From the NCBI RefSeq assembly GCF_900258035.1, contig NZ_OGTP01000008.1:1-64000 (forward strand): a DNA stretch of 64,000 nucleotides, in the 5' to 3' direction. The number at the start of each line of letters is the position of its first letter. Within the stretch, counting starts at the first letter, position 1. Below, in pieces: positions 2,840-21,641 of the stretch. This stretch comes from Caballeronia novacaledonica (GTDB lineage Bacteria; Pseudomonadota; Gammaproteobacteria; Burkholderiales; Burkholderiaceae). The notes under the pieces were generated by a model. That model worked only from the letters and a program-made list of their open reading frames with translations. It was not told the DNA's origin and searched no databases. A program made the position numbers and the translations under genes.

Positions 2840-4194
2840 CGCGAGAATCCCGGCGCGGCATCGGACGAGAGCGCCCCGCCGACGAATGAACGCCACACCG
2901 GACCGTCGCGCTGTTCGGATTGCTGGCCCGGCGTCGAAGGCAAAGCGGCATTCTTCGCGATCGGCGCGACGAGATGCGGCGTCACGACGATCACCAGCTC
3001 GCGGCCCTGCTGCGAGTACTGCAAGGTTTTGAAGAACGCGCCGATGATCGGCAGATCGCCGAGCAGCGGCACCTTGTTGACGTTGGACGCCGTCTCGCGA
3101 TCGACGAGGCCGCCGATCACGAAGCTCTCGCCGTCGCCGAGTTCGACGGCCGTTTCCGCGCGGCGCGTGGTGAGCGCGGGCACCGACACGCCGTCGATGG
3201 TGATCGCGTGCGCGAAGTCGAGCTGGCTCGCCTCGGGCGCGACCTTGAGCGCGATGCGCTCCGGCCCGAGCACCGTCGGCGTCAGCGAAAGCCCGATGCC
3301 GTAGGGCTTGTAGACGATCGTCGTCGTGCCGAGCGATTGCGGCACCGGCACCGGAATTTCGCCGCCCGCGAGAAAGCTCGCGCTCTGCCCCGACAACGCG
3401 ACGAGCGTCGGCTGCGCCAGCACGCGCGCGAGGTTATTGCTTTCGAGCAGGCTCAGGTTCGCGAACAGTCCGCGCGACGTCGAATTGAGCAGCAAGTTGA
3501 ACGCGGAGCCGATCGGCGACGTCGCGGTGACGGCAAGCGGACTGGTCGCGCCGCCCGTGACGCTCGTGAGCGCGCTCGGCGCGAACGTGCCGAACGCGAA
3601 GCCCGCATGATTCTGCGAAAACAGATTGAAGCCCGCTTCCTTGAGCACGGTCTTGCTGAACTCGACCACTTTCACATCGACCTGAACGACGCTTTTCGTC
3701 GCCACCGCCGATGCATCGACGAGCGCGCCATCCTTGCCCACCGCCGCGCGCGCCGCCGCGACCGCGCGCTGATGCGTGGCCATCGTCGGCGTCGTGCCGG
3801 TGAGCACGGCGGTCTTGCCGAGCACGCGCACCTGCGGCGCGGCGGCGTCGGCGAGCGCGGCGCTCACGTTCGCCGCGACCTCCACGGTGTACGACAGCGG
3901 CTCGTCGCGGCCGCGTTGCCACAGCATCAGGTTCGTCGTTCCGGCCGATTTGCCGACGAGCAGCACGCCGCCGCCCTTCAACACGTTCACATCCGCGACC
4001 GACGGATCGCCGAGCGCGACGCGCGTGATCGTCCGGCCGCGCGCGAGCGGTTTCTGCGCGCCGGCCGTGAGCGCGATGACACCCGCATCCGGTGCTTCGG
4101 ACGTTGCGGCGTACACATTGACTGCGAGCGCTGCCGCCGCACACGCGGCGAGCGCCGCTCTTTTCCATCGATCGAGTTGCCGGTTTCTTGTCAT
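2836..4194 (-). CDS. cpaC: CpaC/RcpA, Tad pilus outer-membrane secretin
   Basis: This 452-residue exported protein begins with a signal peptide (about 1-29, ending VNVYAA). The N-terminal part resembles the pilus-formation (RcpA N-terminal) domain, and a BON-like part covers roughly 110-165. The C-terminal half is the secretin core with SGQSASFLAGGEIPVPV and the closing block VIGGLVDRE...VPLLGDLPIIGAFFK...ELVIVVTPHLV. It forms the outer-membrane channel for the Flp pilus. It ends in an ATGA overlap with cpaE and starts 24 bp after cpaB. At 452 residues it is short for a secretin but normal for CpaC. Confidence 0.93.
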   Translation of the reverse strand: MTRNRQLDRWKRAALAACAAAALAVNVYAATSEAPDAGVIALTAGAQKPLARGRTITRVALGDPSVADVNVLKGGGVLLVGKSAGTTNLMLWQRGRDEPLSYTVEVAANVSAALADAAAPQVRVLGKTAVLTGTTPTMATHQRAVAAARAAVGKDGALVDASAVATKSVVQVDVKVVEFSKTVLKEAGFNLFSQNHAGFAFGTFAPSALTSVTGGATSPLAVTATSPIGSAFNLLLNSTSRGLFANLSLLESNNLARVLAQPTLVALSGQSASFLAGGEIPVPVPQSLGTTTIVYKPYGIGLSLTPTVLGPERIALKVAPEASQLDFAHAITIDGVSVPALTTRRAETAVELGDGESFVIGGLVDRETASNVNKVPLLGDLPIIGAFFKTLQYSQQGRELVIVVTPHLVAPIAKNAALPSTPGQQSEQRDGPVWRSFVGGALSSDAAPGFSR

Positions 4195-18676: not shown

Positions 18677-20092
18677 TCATGAGCCGATGAGTTCGCGCGC
18701 CCTTTCGAGCGCCTCGACGATGGCCGCGACGGTTCGCTCGCGCGCGGCTTCGTCGTTCTGCCGCAGCGCATACGACGGGTGATACGTCGCGACGACCAGC
18801 TTGTCCCGATACGGTACGACGCGCCCGATATGCGCCGCCAGCGTCGCGCGTCGTCCGAACAGCGCCGCCAGCGCCGTGGCGCCGAGCGTCACGATCACGC
18901 GCGCGCCGACGTCGTGCAATTCCTGTTCGAGCCAGTACGAGCACGCTTGCACTTCCTGCTGCGCGGGCGTCTTGTGCAGACGCCGCTTGCCGCGCGGCTC
19001 CCACTTGAAATGTTTCACCGCGTTGGTCAGATAGACCTGCTCGCGCGGCATGCCGGCGCGCTGCATCGCGTCGTGAAGCAGTTGTCCCGCCGGGCCGACG
19101 AACGGCTCGCCCTTCAAATCCTCCTGATCGCCGGGCTGTTCGCCGAGCAGCATGATGCGCGCGCCGGACGGACCCGCGCCGGGCACCGCCTGCGTCGCGT
19201 TGCGCCACAGATCGCAGCGGCGGCAATTGTCGAGCGACGTGGGCGCATCGCGTTCGGGCTGCGCGTCCTGCGCTTCTACCTGCACCGGCTTGCCGACGAG
19301 CGCGCCCACGCTTTGCGCCTGCGCGACGCGCCGTGCGCCGCCGCGCGCGTCGCTCACGAGCTGCGGAATCAGCGCGCCTTCCGGCAGCCCTTTCCAGAAA
19401 CGCACCGGCATATGCTGTTCGAGCGCGGATTCGTTCAGGCGCGCGGGGTTGAAAATGCTGCGGTAGTAGGTCATCCAGAGCGCTTCGGCGGCGTCGGGCG
19501 TATCGACCGCATGATCCGATGCCAGCGCGCGGCGGCGTTCCAGTTGCAGGCGCTCGCCGTCGAACATCGCGGCTGCGTCGGGCGTCGCGATGAGCCACGT
19601 CGAGCGTCCCATGCGCGCCGCGAAATGCTCCGCGGCCCAGGCGAGCACGTCGTGGCCCGGCTCGTACCAGGCCACGTATTCGGGCGCGCCGAGCGATGCC
19701 TCGCGCTGGCGGAACCGCACGTAGGCAATCATGTCGTGCTGTGCCCGGCGCACCGCCTTGGCCATCTTGTAGAGGCGCGCGCCGTCTTCATCGGCGGGCG
19801 ATGCAACCGAACGGTCACCCTGCGCCCAACGCCAGAGCACGCGATAGAGAAAGCTCCAGCGGCGCGGATCGCGGAAATGCGCGGCGTCCTTCAGAAGCGA
19901 TGCAAGTTCTCGCGAGACGCGGATGTGCGGCGCGTCCGCCGCGCCGGCCGGCGATGCCGCTTCGCCGAACAACGCCGGCTCCGCTTGCGCCGTGCGCCAG
20001 TCGATCGATTCGGGCGTGAGTTGTTGCGCGAGGGCATCGAGCGCGGCGGCGCGCCAGGCGTCGAAATCGTCGTCGATGATGATGACGCGCAT
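18677..20092 (-). CDS. DUF4130-UdgX fusion: uracil-DNA-binding/cross-linking repair protein
   Basis: The 471-residue protein joins two parts. Residues about 1-250 match DUF4130 (TIGR03915-like DNA metabolism protein, e.g. FLYRVLWRW, EYVAWYEPGHDVL). Residues about 280-471 are a UdgX-type uracil-DNA glycosylase-fold domain with GEQPGDQED (317-325), FVGPAGQLL and KRRLHKTP (369-376), plus the family HPS at 438-440. In mycobacterial UdgX the His of KRRIHK makes a covalent bond to the abasic site after uracil removal; the equivalent here is H373. Cys290, Cys293 and Cys384 probably ligate an iron-sulfur cluster. The start ATG shares one base with the upstream stop (TGATG). It is co-transcribed with the radical SAM gene under a LexA box. 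Confidence 0.9.
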   Translation of the reverse strand: MRVIIIDDDFDAWRAAALDALAQQLTPESIDWRTAQAEPALFGEAASPAGAADAPHIRVSRELASLLKDAAHFRDPRRWSFLYRVLWRWAQGDRSVASPADEDGARLYKMAKAVRRAQHDMIAYVRFRQREASLGAPEYVAWYEPGHDVLAWAAEHFAARMGRSTWLIATPDAAAMFDGERLQLERRRALASDHAVDTPDAAEALWMTYYRSIFNPARLNESALEQHMPVRFWKGLPEGALIPQLVSDARGGARRVAQAQSVGALVGKPVQVEAQDAQPERDAPTSLDNCRRCDLWRNATQAVPGAGPSGARIMLLGEQPGDQEDLKGEPFVGPAGQLLHDAMQRAGMPREQVYLTNAVKHFKWEPRGKRRLHKTPAQQEVQACSYWLEQELHDVGARVIVTLGATALAALFGRRATLAAHIGRVVPYRDKLVVATYHPSYALRQNDEAARERTVAAIVEALERARELIGS

Positions 20093-21303
20093 CAGATCAG
20101 CGAAAGCTGCACAGGCCCGGTGGCGAGCGCGCGCCGAAGATTTTCCGACGGCGTTTCGCCCAGCGGCGGCCGGTAATCCGCCGTGACCACGAACGGCTTC
20201 ACCTTGTCCATGCCGCAGCGCAACTGCACGAGATCCTGATAGCGCACGCGCCGCGCGCGCCGCAGTTCGACGATGCGCTTCGCGTTGCGCATTCCGATGC
20301 CCGGCACACGCGCGATCACGCGCGCGGGCGCGGCGTTCAGATCGACGGGAAAGCGGTCGCGATGCGCGAGCGCCCACGCGAGCTTCGGATCGACATCGAG
20401 CGGCAGATTGCCGGCATCGCCGAGCAGTTCGGCGGCGGCGAATCCGTAGCCTCGCATCAGAAAATCCGCCTGATACAGCCGATGCTCGCGCAACAGCGGC
20501 GGCGCTTTCGACGGCACGCCCGACGGGCTGTCGGGAATCGGACTGAACGCCGAGTAATACACGCGCTTCAACTGATACGAGCCGTACAGCGTTTCGGCGG
20601 TGCCGAGGATCGTGCGATCGTCGGTTTCGTCGGCGCCGACGATCATTTGCGTGCTCTGCCCGGCCGGCGCGAAACGCGGCGCGCGCGGCTCCGCTTCCGA
20701 CTCCTCGCGCGCGACGCGGATATTGCCCATCGCCAGCTTGATCGTGCGGCCGCTTTTTTCGGGCGCGAGACGTTCGAGACTGATTTCCGTCGGCAACTCG
20801 ATGTTCACGCTCAGGCGGTCGGCGTAGCGTCCCGCTTGCGCGATGAGTTCCGGGTCGGCGTCGGGAATCGTCTTCAGATGGATATAACCGCGAAAATGGT
20901 GCTTCTCGCGCAGCGTCCTCGCGACGAGAACGAGCTGCTCCATCGTGTAGTTCGACGAGCGAATCACGCCGGAGCTGAGAAAAAGCCCGTCGATGTAATT
21001 GCGGCGATAAAAATCCAGCGTCAGTCCGACGACTTCTTCCGGCGTGAAGCGCGCGCGCGGCACGTTGCTCGAACGCCGGTTGATGCAGTAGCGGCAGTCG
21101 TAGAGACAAAAGTTCGTCAACAGGATCTTGAGCAGCGAGACGCAGCGGCCGTCCGGCGTGAAGCTGTGACAGATGCCTGAGCCGGTGCTGGCGCCGAGGC
21201 CGTCGATGCCGCGCGACTCGCGTTTCGGCGCGCCGCCGCTCGCGCATGACGCGTCGTATTTGGCGGCGTCGGCGAGGATTTCGAGCTTTTCGGAGAGATC
21301 CAT
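20092..21303 (-). CDS. Putative DNA modification/repair radical SAM protein
   Basis: The 403-residue protein has the radical SAM cluster motif C66-x3-C70-x2-C73 (NFCLYDCRYCINR) and a C-terminal helix-hairpin-helix DNA-binding segment (RVIARVPGIGMRNAKRIVELRR, about 317-340), the layout of the TIGR03916 family. The chemistry is unknown. The start was set at 21303 (MDLSEKLEIL) because any longer version would read through the LexA box at 21315-21334. The leader would be very short, so weakly initiated or near-leaderless translation is possible. Family members usually sit beside DUF4130/UdgX genes, as here. Confidence 0.9.
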   Translation of the reverse strand: MDLSEKLEILADAAKYDASCASGGAPKRESRGIDGLGASTGSGICHSFTPDGRCVSLLKILLTNFCLYDCRYCINRRSSNVPRARFTPEEVVGLTLDFYRRNYIDGLFLSSGVIRSSNYTMEQLVLVARTLREKHHFRGYIHLKTIPDADPELIAQAGRYADRLSVNIELPTEISLERLAPEKSGRTIKLAMGNIRVAREESEAEPRAPRFAPAGQSTQMIVGADETDDRTILGTAETLYGSYQLKRVYYSAFSPIPDSPSGVPSKAPPLLREHRLYQADFLMRGYGFAAAELLGDAGNLPLDVDPKLAWALAHRDRFPVDLNAAPARVIARVPGIGMRNAKRIVELRRARRVRYQDLVQLRCGMDKVKPFVVTADYRPPLGETPSENLRRALATGPVQLSLI

Positions 21304-21314
21304 CTTGAGTATGA

Positions 21315-21334
21315 TACTGTATGTATATACAGTA
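21315..21334 (-). promoter_or_regulatory. LexA (SOS) box of the radical SAM/UdgX operon
   Basis: TACTGTATGTATATACAGTA has the CTGT-N8-ACAG core and differs by one base from the classical TACTGTATATATATACAGTA. It lies 11 bp upstream of the radical SAM start codon and would cover the promoter. This is strong evidence for LexA repression and DNA-damage induction. Confidence 0.9.
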
Positions 21335-21419: not shown

Positions 21420-21641
21420 ATGCGATTCGACTACAAGACGTTTCACATCGATTGCACCGCGCGTCACGACCCGGACGGAAGCTACTACGCCCGCGCGAAG
21501 ATCACGCATTCGCCGGACGAACACACGGCGCATGTGGAAGTTTTCGAATCCGGCGAACTCGACGCATTCACGAGCGAATCGGACGCCGTTCATTGCGCGC
21601 GCGCCTGGGCCATCGAATGGTGTGACGAGGCGTTGGCGTAG
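21420..21641 (+). CDS. Small conserved-looking hypothetical protein, 73 aa
   Basis: The 73-residue protein (MRFDYKTFHIDC...) is not recognised. It has no signal peptide or membrane segment, is acidic, and reads like a compact alpha/beta domain (ARHDPDGSYYARAKITH, then HVEVFESGELDAF, then an amphipathic helix). It is divergent from the SOS operon, and its start lies 86 bp from the LexA box. Codon use looks like that of real neighbours. Small soluble proteins of this style recur in Burkholderiales, but no function can be assigned. Confidence 0.65.
   Translation: MRFDYKTFHIDCTARHDPDGSYYARAKITHSPDEHTAHVEVFESGELDAFTSESDAVHCARAWAIEWCDEALA

Follow-up and report, generated by a model that had tools for sequence, protein, structure and literature searches.

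The operon and its operator

We describe a two-gene operon in a stretch of 64,000 nucleotides from Caballeronia novacaledonica (contig NZ_OGTP01000008.1, positions 1 to 64,000; 'the window' below), in which a radical S-adenosylmethionine (SAM) protein and a DUF4130-UdgX fusion protein are encoded behind a LexA box. Both genes lie on the minus strand. The radical SAM protein (20092..21303, 403 amino acids (aa)) belongs to TIGR03916 (rSAM_link_UDG), a family of the COG4277 type, and the fusion protein (18677..20092, 471 aa) was recognised as an open reading frame (ORF) with profile matches to TIGR03915 and TIGR03914. In a profile search all three curated cut-offs were passed: 541.9 bits for TIGR03916 (cut-off 343.5), 204.6 bits for TIGR03915 (112.25) and 249.8 bits for TIGR03914 (189.95). 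The DUF4130/TIGR03915 domain spans 19379..20080 on the minus strand (206.8 bits in the genome search, 123.8 bits for the Pfam DUF4130 model) and is followed by the UdgX domain, matched by the TIGR03914 profile, at 18704..19372. A Pfam scan of the two proteins matched Radical_SAM, DUF4130 and UDG (uracil-DNA glycosylase), with a helix-hairpin-helix slightly under its cut-off. An earlier note on this DNA had read the genes as overlapping in TGATG, which the coordinates bear out; the common base is the A at 20092.

The same note had placed a site one base from the LexA consensus 11 bp before the radical SAM start, and the sequence agrees. The box, TACTGTATATACATACAGTA, lies on the minus strand at 21334..21315 (feature 21315..21334) and is followed by 11 bases and then the ATG at 21303. 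By count it has one mismatch to TACTGTATATATATACAGTA, the classical LexA consensus.

Across the 6.78 Mb genome there are four exact TACTGTN8ACAGTA sites and seven more with one mismatch. A reversed control pattern, allowing up to one mismatch, gives four sites in the same genome, so one-mismatch sites on their own may be chance. Eight of the 11 sites stand ahead of the window operon, a second DUF4130 gene, and genes resembling imuA, uvrA, lexA, recA, dinB and PA0069. Family searches identified the first two and lexA; the others were named from ORFs by eye. The remaining three comprise an exact site between CsbD-like and 118-aa ORFs, one near a helicase-like ORF and one without assignment. LexA is encoded in this genome (218.3 bits), and TACTGTATAAAAATACAGTC precedes its gene. 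There is also a second LexA-like gene (L287, G000:C18:10200-10745; 110.9 bits), just at the family cut-off. The box ahead of the PA0069-like radical SAM gene (L041, G000:C52:4450-4469; gene named by eye) is one of the one-mismatch sites.

Operators of relatives

Three sets of genomes were searched for the radical SAM family: 150 genomes of the window's family, with TIGR03916 in 30; a draw of 398 Pseudomonadota genomes, with TIGR03916 above cut-off in 84; and a second draw of 185 genomes over more genera of the window's class, with TIGR03916 above cut-off in only three. Two of those three loci, in the window's own genome (G000) and in G172, also belong to the 398-genome draw; the third is L080 (G696). 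The surveyed loci are related to each other, and the counts are not of independent events.

An exact CTGTN8ACAG occurs between -130 and +15 of the TIGR03916 gene in 30/30 family loci, the window's included. The box is the only conserved element of these promoters, and its core ends 9-17 bp before the start. A longer N-terminus read through the box, which the earlier note had named as a case that would speak against it, is unlikely because in all 30 loci the same conserved N-terminus begins at that distance.

Similar boxes before TIGR03916 genes of other genomes, which the note had proposed to look for, are widespread. In the Pseudomonadota draw, an exact LexA core of the type usual for the lineage lies close upstream in 74 of the 84 loci. 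Outside the window's class it is GTTCN7GTTC, in either orientation (54/54 loci), the alphaproteobacterial LexA motif; inside the class it is CTGTN8ACAG (20/30). For GTTCN7GTTC and CTGTN8ACAG in their own groups, shuffled sequences gave means of 0.16 and 0.05; with the two motifs exchanged between the groups, the means were 0.06 and 0.13. Windows placed within the coding parts of these loci contained no core motif.

Nine of the ten loci that lack an exact core have a weaker or different candidate site. CTGTN8CCAG was found in five by regular expression. Three loci of one genus (g64) show a palindrome of the type GTCTCAN5TGAGAC, in G445 by search with one mismatch and in G243 and G532 by eye. 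Allowing up to one mismatch, the G445 sequences (L237-L248) contain 12 such sites against none for the control, and uvrA-, imuA- and helicase-like ORFs (named by eye) adjoin three of them, as a possible damage-response motif. The palindrome is absent near lexA in all three genus-g64 genomes, so its LexA-type label is one that we infer. In G500, 16 of 18 bases upstream of the radical SAM gene are common to the upstream region of its own lexA, a match reached in 1/500 shuffles. We rejected another motif there, GAACGAACGTTC: it is one base off the stretch before the G500 radical SAM gene, yet is absent near the G500 lexA, and the 18-mer shared is a different one.

The tenth locus, in G223, has no recognisable LexA-type site upstream. 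A lexA profile search in 13 genomes gave 11 above cut-off; below it were G500 (99.6 bits) and G223 (62.8 bits, over the peptidase half only). Thus no full LexA is recognisable in the one genome whose locus has no candidate site. The radical SAM protein of G223 shares 61% identity with one from an Acinetobacter record.

A further set of 80 best-match loci from named organisms, which is not a random draw, has an exact core in 63 (15 CTGTN8ACAG, 48 GTTCN7GTTC). Among the 17 without one (L148, L149, L151, L154, L156, L157, L161, L163, L173, L183, L184, L190, L200, L205, L211, L212 and L214), three (from Xanthomonas, Stenotrophomonas and Pseudoxanthomonas) show GTCTCAN5TGAGAC by eye. Two other box types were tried and dropped: TTAGN6TACTA, the Xanthomonad type, and TGTTCN4GAACA, that of Verrucomicrobia, occur in 0/80 named and 0/84 Pseudomonadota loci. 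A gut-metagenome relative (L296) has, by eye, two near-matches to CGAACN4GTTCG, the Gram-positive LexA type, upstream of position 3001 and before its radical SAM start.

The box could be a chance match: at up to one mismatch the genome has 11 sites and the control pattern four, and one-mismatch sites that stand alone can arise by chance. The half-sites here are exact, however, the core is exact in every family locus and lineage-typical motifs take its place elsewhere; we regard this explanation as refuted in practice by the survey. The note's proposal of SOS control by LexA is thereby supported through conservation with lineage-specific motifs, and on sequence grounds LexA control of the operon is close to certain.

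A proposed core pair with optional UdgX

TIGR03915 is present in 84/84 genomes with TIGR03916 (Fisher p 4e-82, relatedness not corrected). Four genomes have TIGR03915 without TIGR03916 above cut-off: G220, with a weak match and an internal stop, G348, G364 and G431. Caulobacter vibrioides matches TIGR03916 and, above cut-off, TIGR03915. It is likely that the radical SAM and DUF4130 proteins act as a unit.

In 20 of the 84 pairs the DUF4130 protein stops after that domain, with no UdgX following it. TIGR03914 was searched for in 24 genomes; none of the 20 with such pairs has it above cut-off, and the three genomes that do (G376, G388 and G303) lie outside them. Thirteen of these UdgX-less pairs have an exact LexA core and five have CTGTN8CCAG, with neither in G500 and G223. 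LexA control is thus a property of the radical SAM-DUF4130 pair, as 18 of the 20 keep one of these sites. This suggests that UdgX is a frequent extra and DUF4130 the shared part. The pair without UdgX, as in Pseudomonas loci, would be the minimal system.

The UdgX domain

The UdgX domain is closer to MsmUdgX of Mycobacterium smegmatis than to family 4 UDG (256.7 against 160.7 bits for the closest solved chains). The catalytic residues of UdgX, as given in the excerpts of PMC10359453 that we drew on, were mapped here by motif, and the domain carries them, in line with its identification by the earlier note. Motif A, GEQPG at residues 317-321, is kept in 42/42 proteins of the operon alignment (A3), in which E318, Q319, N357, R371, H373, H438 and R444 are also invariant. 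In place of the motif B pattern HPS(S/A)(L/V)(L/V)R this protein has HPSYALR, which keeps the invariant H438, P439 and R444 but carries Tyr at the S/A position and Ala at the first of the two L/V positions. The note had placed H373 in a KRRIHK context: the His is there (codon 18974..18976, minus strand; the equivalent of MsmUdgX H109), but the loop reads KRRLHK, with Leu for Ile. The operon UdgX probably cross-links to uracil-derived abasic DNA. In two relatives (L169 and L191) the UdgX domain lacks C290, C293 and C384 and has Gln for H361, by eye, as if the iron-sulfur cluster were lost.

Orphan DUF4130-UdgX genes

The window's genome has a second DUF4130-UdgX gene (L045:3716-5215, on contig G000:C39, minus strand) with no TIGR03916 neighbour. 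Its box reads CACTGTATGGATATACAGTA on the coding strand, and its R-loop has diverged to EERAH. Relatives in the genus often carry such an orphan too. An exact CTGTN8ACAG lies upstream of 19/19 orphans in the family sample, this one included, at distances of 39 to 153 bases from the start codon taken, one of these starts being uncertain; a 20th candidate (G098), broken into two pieces, was left out. Some genomes have a DUF4130-UdgX gene and no TIGR03916 match, namely four of the 150 in the family (G013, G034, G051 and G091) and G364 in the Pseudomonadota draw; many of the assemblies are fragmented, and a gene may have been missed. The G364 gene stands behind GTTCATGATATGTTC; elsewhere in the genus these 15 bases are found ahead of the radical SAM gene, as though G364 had retained the operator after losing that gene.

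The orphans retain GEQPG (19/19) and not KRR (0/19). The His is replaced in four of the 19 (by Leu in two and Gln in two), R371 in one, and Asn357 by Tyr in three; in the 42 operon proteins, unlike the orphans, R371 and H373 never vary. Orphan loops include ERPL and ERVQ beside EERAH. In the R-loop comparison the second ORF of L027, taken in a wrong frame, was an outlier, and four further family copies are incomplete at the locus end. According to the excerpted text of PMC10359453, H109 mutants of MsmUdgX no longer form the covalent complex and acquire the activity of an ordinary UDG; the His-less orphans are therefore predicted to be non-cross-linking.

The radical SAM protein

The cluster motif CX3CX2C (C66, C70 and C73; 21085..21108, minus strand) is kept in 112/112 sequences. 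So are C20, C45, H46 and C54 in an N-terminal stretch (21142..21246, minus strand), which form a candidate second metal site. The alignment counts one locus twice, as L030 and L138 (both G089). All four residues also occur in 5/5 further sequences, of which four are 49-51% identical and L299 60%. The N-terminal auxiliary cluster of lipoyl synthase is bound by CX4CX5C. We rejected membership of that family on spacing, which here is C20-X24-C45-X8-C54.

An AlphaFold2 model has a predicted local distance difference test score (pLDDT) of 85.8, falling below 50 over residues 20-42. Structure comparison of the model recovered the radical SAM fold. The family profile matched no solved protein chain at E 1e-3. 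RNA-modifying RlmN and MiaB are among the fold matches listed; SplB is not among the 50 listed, an absence that excludes nothing. The helix-hairpin-helix that the note had reported (residues 320-351; 20251..20346, minus strand) is borderline: PF12836 matches with an E-value of 9.7e-6 and 26.0 bits, against a cut-off of 27.

By eye, a small hemerythrin-like (HHE) gene adjoins the radical SAM gene on its downstream side in L181, L210, L217, L091, L098 and L299, and in several loci such a gene sits between the radical SAM and DUF4130-UdgX genes.

Proposed function and alternatives

We slightly favour reading the locus as an SOS-induced DNA-repair operon in which the radical SAM and DUF4130 proteins act on damaged DNA, with UdgX as a trap where it is fused. 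DNA damage would lift LexA from the operator and induce the operon. The helix-hairpin-helix would bring the radical SAM protein to DNA, where the enzyme, together with DUF4130, would employ a 5'-deoxyadenosyl radical to modify a damaged base or sugar or to reverse the damage. DUF4130 would be the shared hub that couples the radical enzyme, and UdgX in other loci, to the lesion. A fused UdgX may remove uracil at or near such lesions and cap the abasic site covalently through H373, shielding it from breakage until recombination.

Several observations weigh against this repair reading. The exact core is missing from 10 of the 30 window-class loci in the Pseudomonadota draw, and L080 has CTGTN8ACAG with one mismatch. 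The two genes are about 3 kb apart in G376 and G388 (2/84). Fold-match lists for the DUF4130-UdgX protein are filled by UDG-domain matches, and some operon UdgX copies are without the C290/C293/C384 ligands. The top fold matches of the radical SAM protein (lipoyl synthase, HydE, biotin synthase and the activase of pyruvate formate-lyase (PFL)) act on proteins, cofactors and small molecules, and its helix-hairpin-helix scores slightly under the cut-off. DNA as the radical's target is inferred from that motif, SOS control and the UdgX fusion only, and we put the chances of it at about even.

Among the alternatives, the radical SAM protein might work like spore photoproduct lyase and reverse a pyrimidine lesion caused by ultraviolet light or oxidation, with deaminated cytosines exposed as uracil for UdgX to capture and with uracil left to other glycosylases where UdgX is missing. 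This would account for the fusion, for SOS control and for the dispensability of UdgX. We think it unlikely, in view of the lack of a match of the family profile to solved proteins at the threshold given above; moreover, the PA0069-like gene of the same genome already has an SOS-type box and could encode the photoproduct enzyme. Somewhat less probable again is a model in which DUF4130 does the DNA work and the radical SAM protein serves to mature or activate it, for example by giving it a radical or a modified residue. The strict pairing (84/84) fits such a protein substrate, as do PFL-activating enzyme and lipoyl synthase among the listed fold matches. The orphans, however, keep DUF4130 where no TIGR03916 was found, so that form, at least, needs no such maturase, and the helix-hairpin-helix points to DNA.

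With a second cluster at C20, C45 and C54, the protein could instead insert sulfur or another group into DNA bases, as a modification and not as repair. This is improbable: the C-X24-C-X8-C spacing differs from the lipoyl synthase motif, the low pLDDT of the stretch leaves no geometry to judge, and the three cysteines may bind zinc or nothing. Least probable of these is that the radical SAM protein frees DNA of the covalent UdgX adduct, as the earlier note had suggested, or reverses that adduct. The common operon and overlapping genes agree with it. It is disfavoured by the 20/84 pairs without UdgX, 13 of them with an exact box and none in a genome with TIGR03914 above cut-off, and by orphan UdgX copies where no radical SAM partner was detected.

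Returning to the repair reading, we can extend it tentatively, at rather less than even odds. The radical SAM and DUF4130 proteins would carry out a separate, undescribed SOS-induced repair reaction, kept under LexA although the operators vary by lineage. DUF4130 would be a lesion-handling hub that has evolved two effectors. One would be the radical enzyme, with its second metal site (C20/C45/H46/C54); the other would be a trap that binds uracil/abasic sites covalently. The orphans with a LexA box of their own would have remodelled the trap, some by losing the nucleophilic His, into turnover glycosylases or plain lesion binders.

Relation to known systems

The gene pair and its SOS control are already known in outline. 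In the sections of PMC8565304 that bear on it, SOS control of the COG1573-COG4277 operon is predicted in Bacteroidetes, and SOS control of a uracil-DNA-glycosylase repair system is cited as reported in Verrucomicrobia and Alphaproteobacteria. The window operon has the same families (TIGR03916, TIGR03915 and TIGR03914) above curated cut-offs; unlike that operon, it has a canonical LexA box, in Caballeronia. In the literature searched, no article contains both 'UdgX' and 'radical SAM', a single one mentions COG4277, and none was found on the orphans or the UdgX-less pair. As far as these searches go, three things appear to be new: a core pair to which UdgX is optional, the orphan genes and the invariance of the N-terminal residues.

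Unlike MsmUdgX, the UdgX here follows DUF4130 in a fusion protein whose gene shares an SOS operon with that of a radical SAM protein; it has KRRLH for KRRIH, and two variable positions of its motif B do not fit the published pattern. Spore photoproduct lyase and PA0069-like SOS radical SAM proteins share a published link to SOS and DNA repair (excerpts of PMC8565304 and PMC3765255). They are, however, COG1533 and not COG4277 proteins (PMC8565304, same excerpts), and no solved sequence relative of TIGR03916 was found. The ImuA-ImuB-DnaE2 mutasome is comparable in its LexA box: one of the same type precedes an imuA-like ORF (named by eye) of the window's genome. The mutasome proteins are unrelated and serve translesion synthesis.

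The physiological role of UdgX is described as largely unknown in the excerpted text of PMC10359453. The operon gives UdgX a damage-response setting, and the orphans supply natural variants of its loop. The pair, above cut-off in 84/398 genomes of the Pseudomonadota draw but in only 3/185 of the class draw, is tied to SOS in many lineages.

Other observations

In plasmid records, the proteins most similar to the radical SAM protein come from Caballeronia, the best being 96.5% identical over 403 aa. A search of viral contigs gave two loci. Ten records labelled 'phage' match, and a phage origin was considered and rejected: the best annotated, CAKLQH020000003.1 (L269), filed as an Acinetobacter phage, carries glyS, glyQ and aroE beside the gene pair and by appearance is a bacterial contig, probably misfiled. 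A strict-pattern scan of the region upstream of the operon found no sigma-70-type promoter. A 73-aa ORF on the plus strand (about 21420-21641) diverges from the LexA box at a distance of 85 bp, and the site may control this ORF too.

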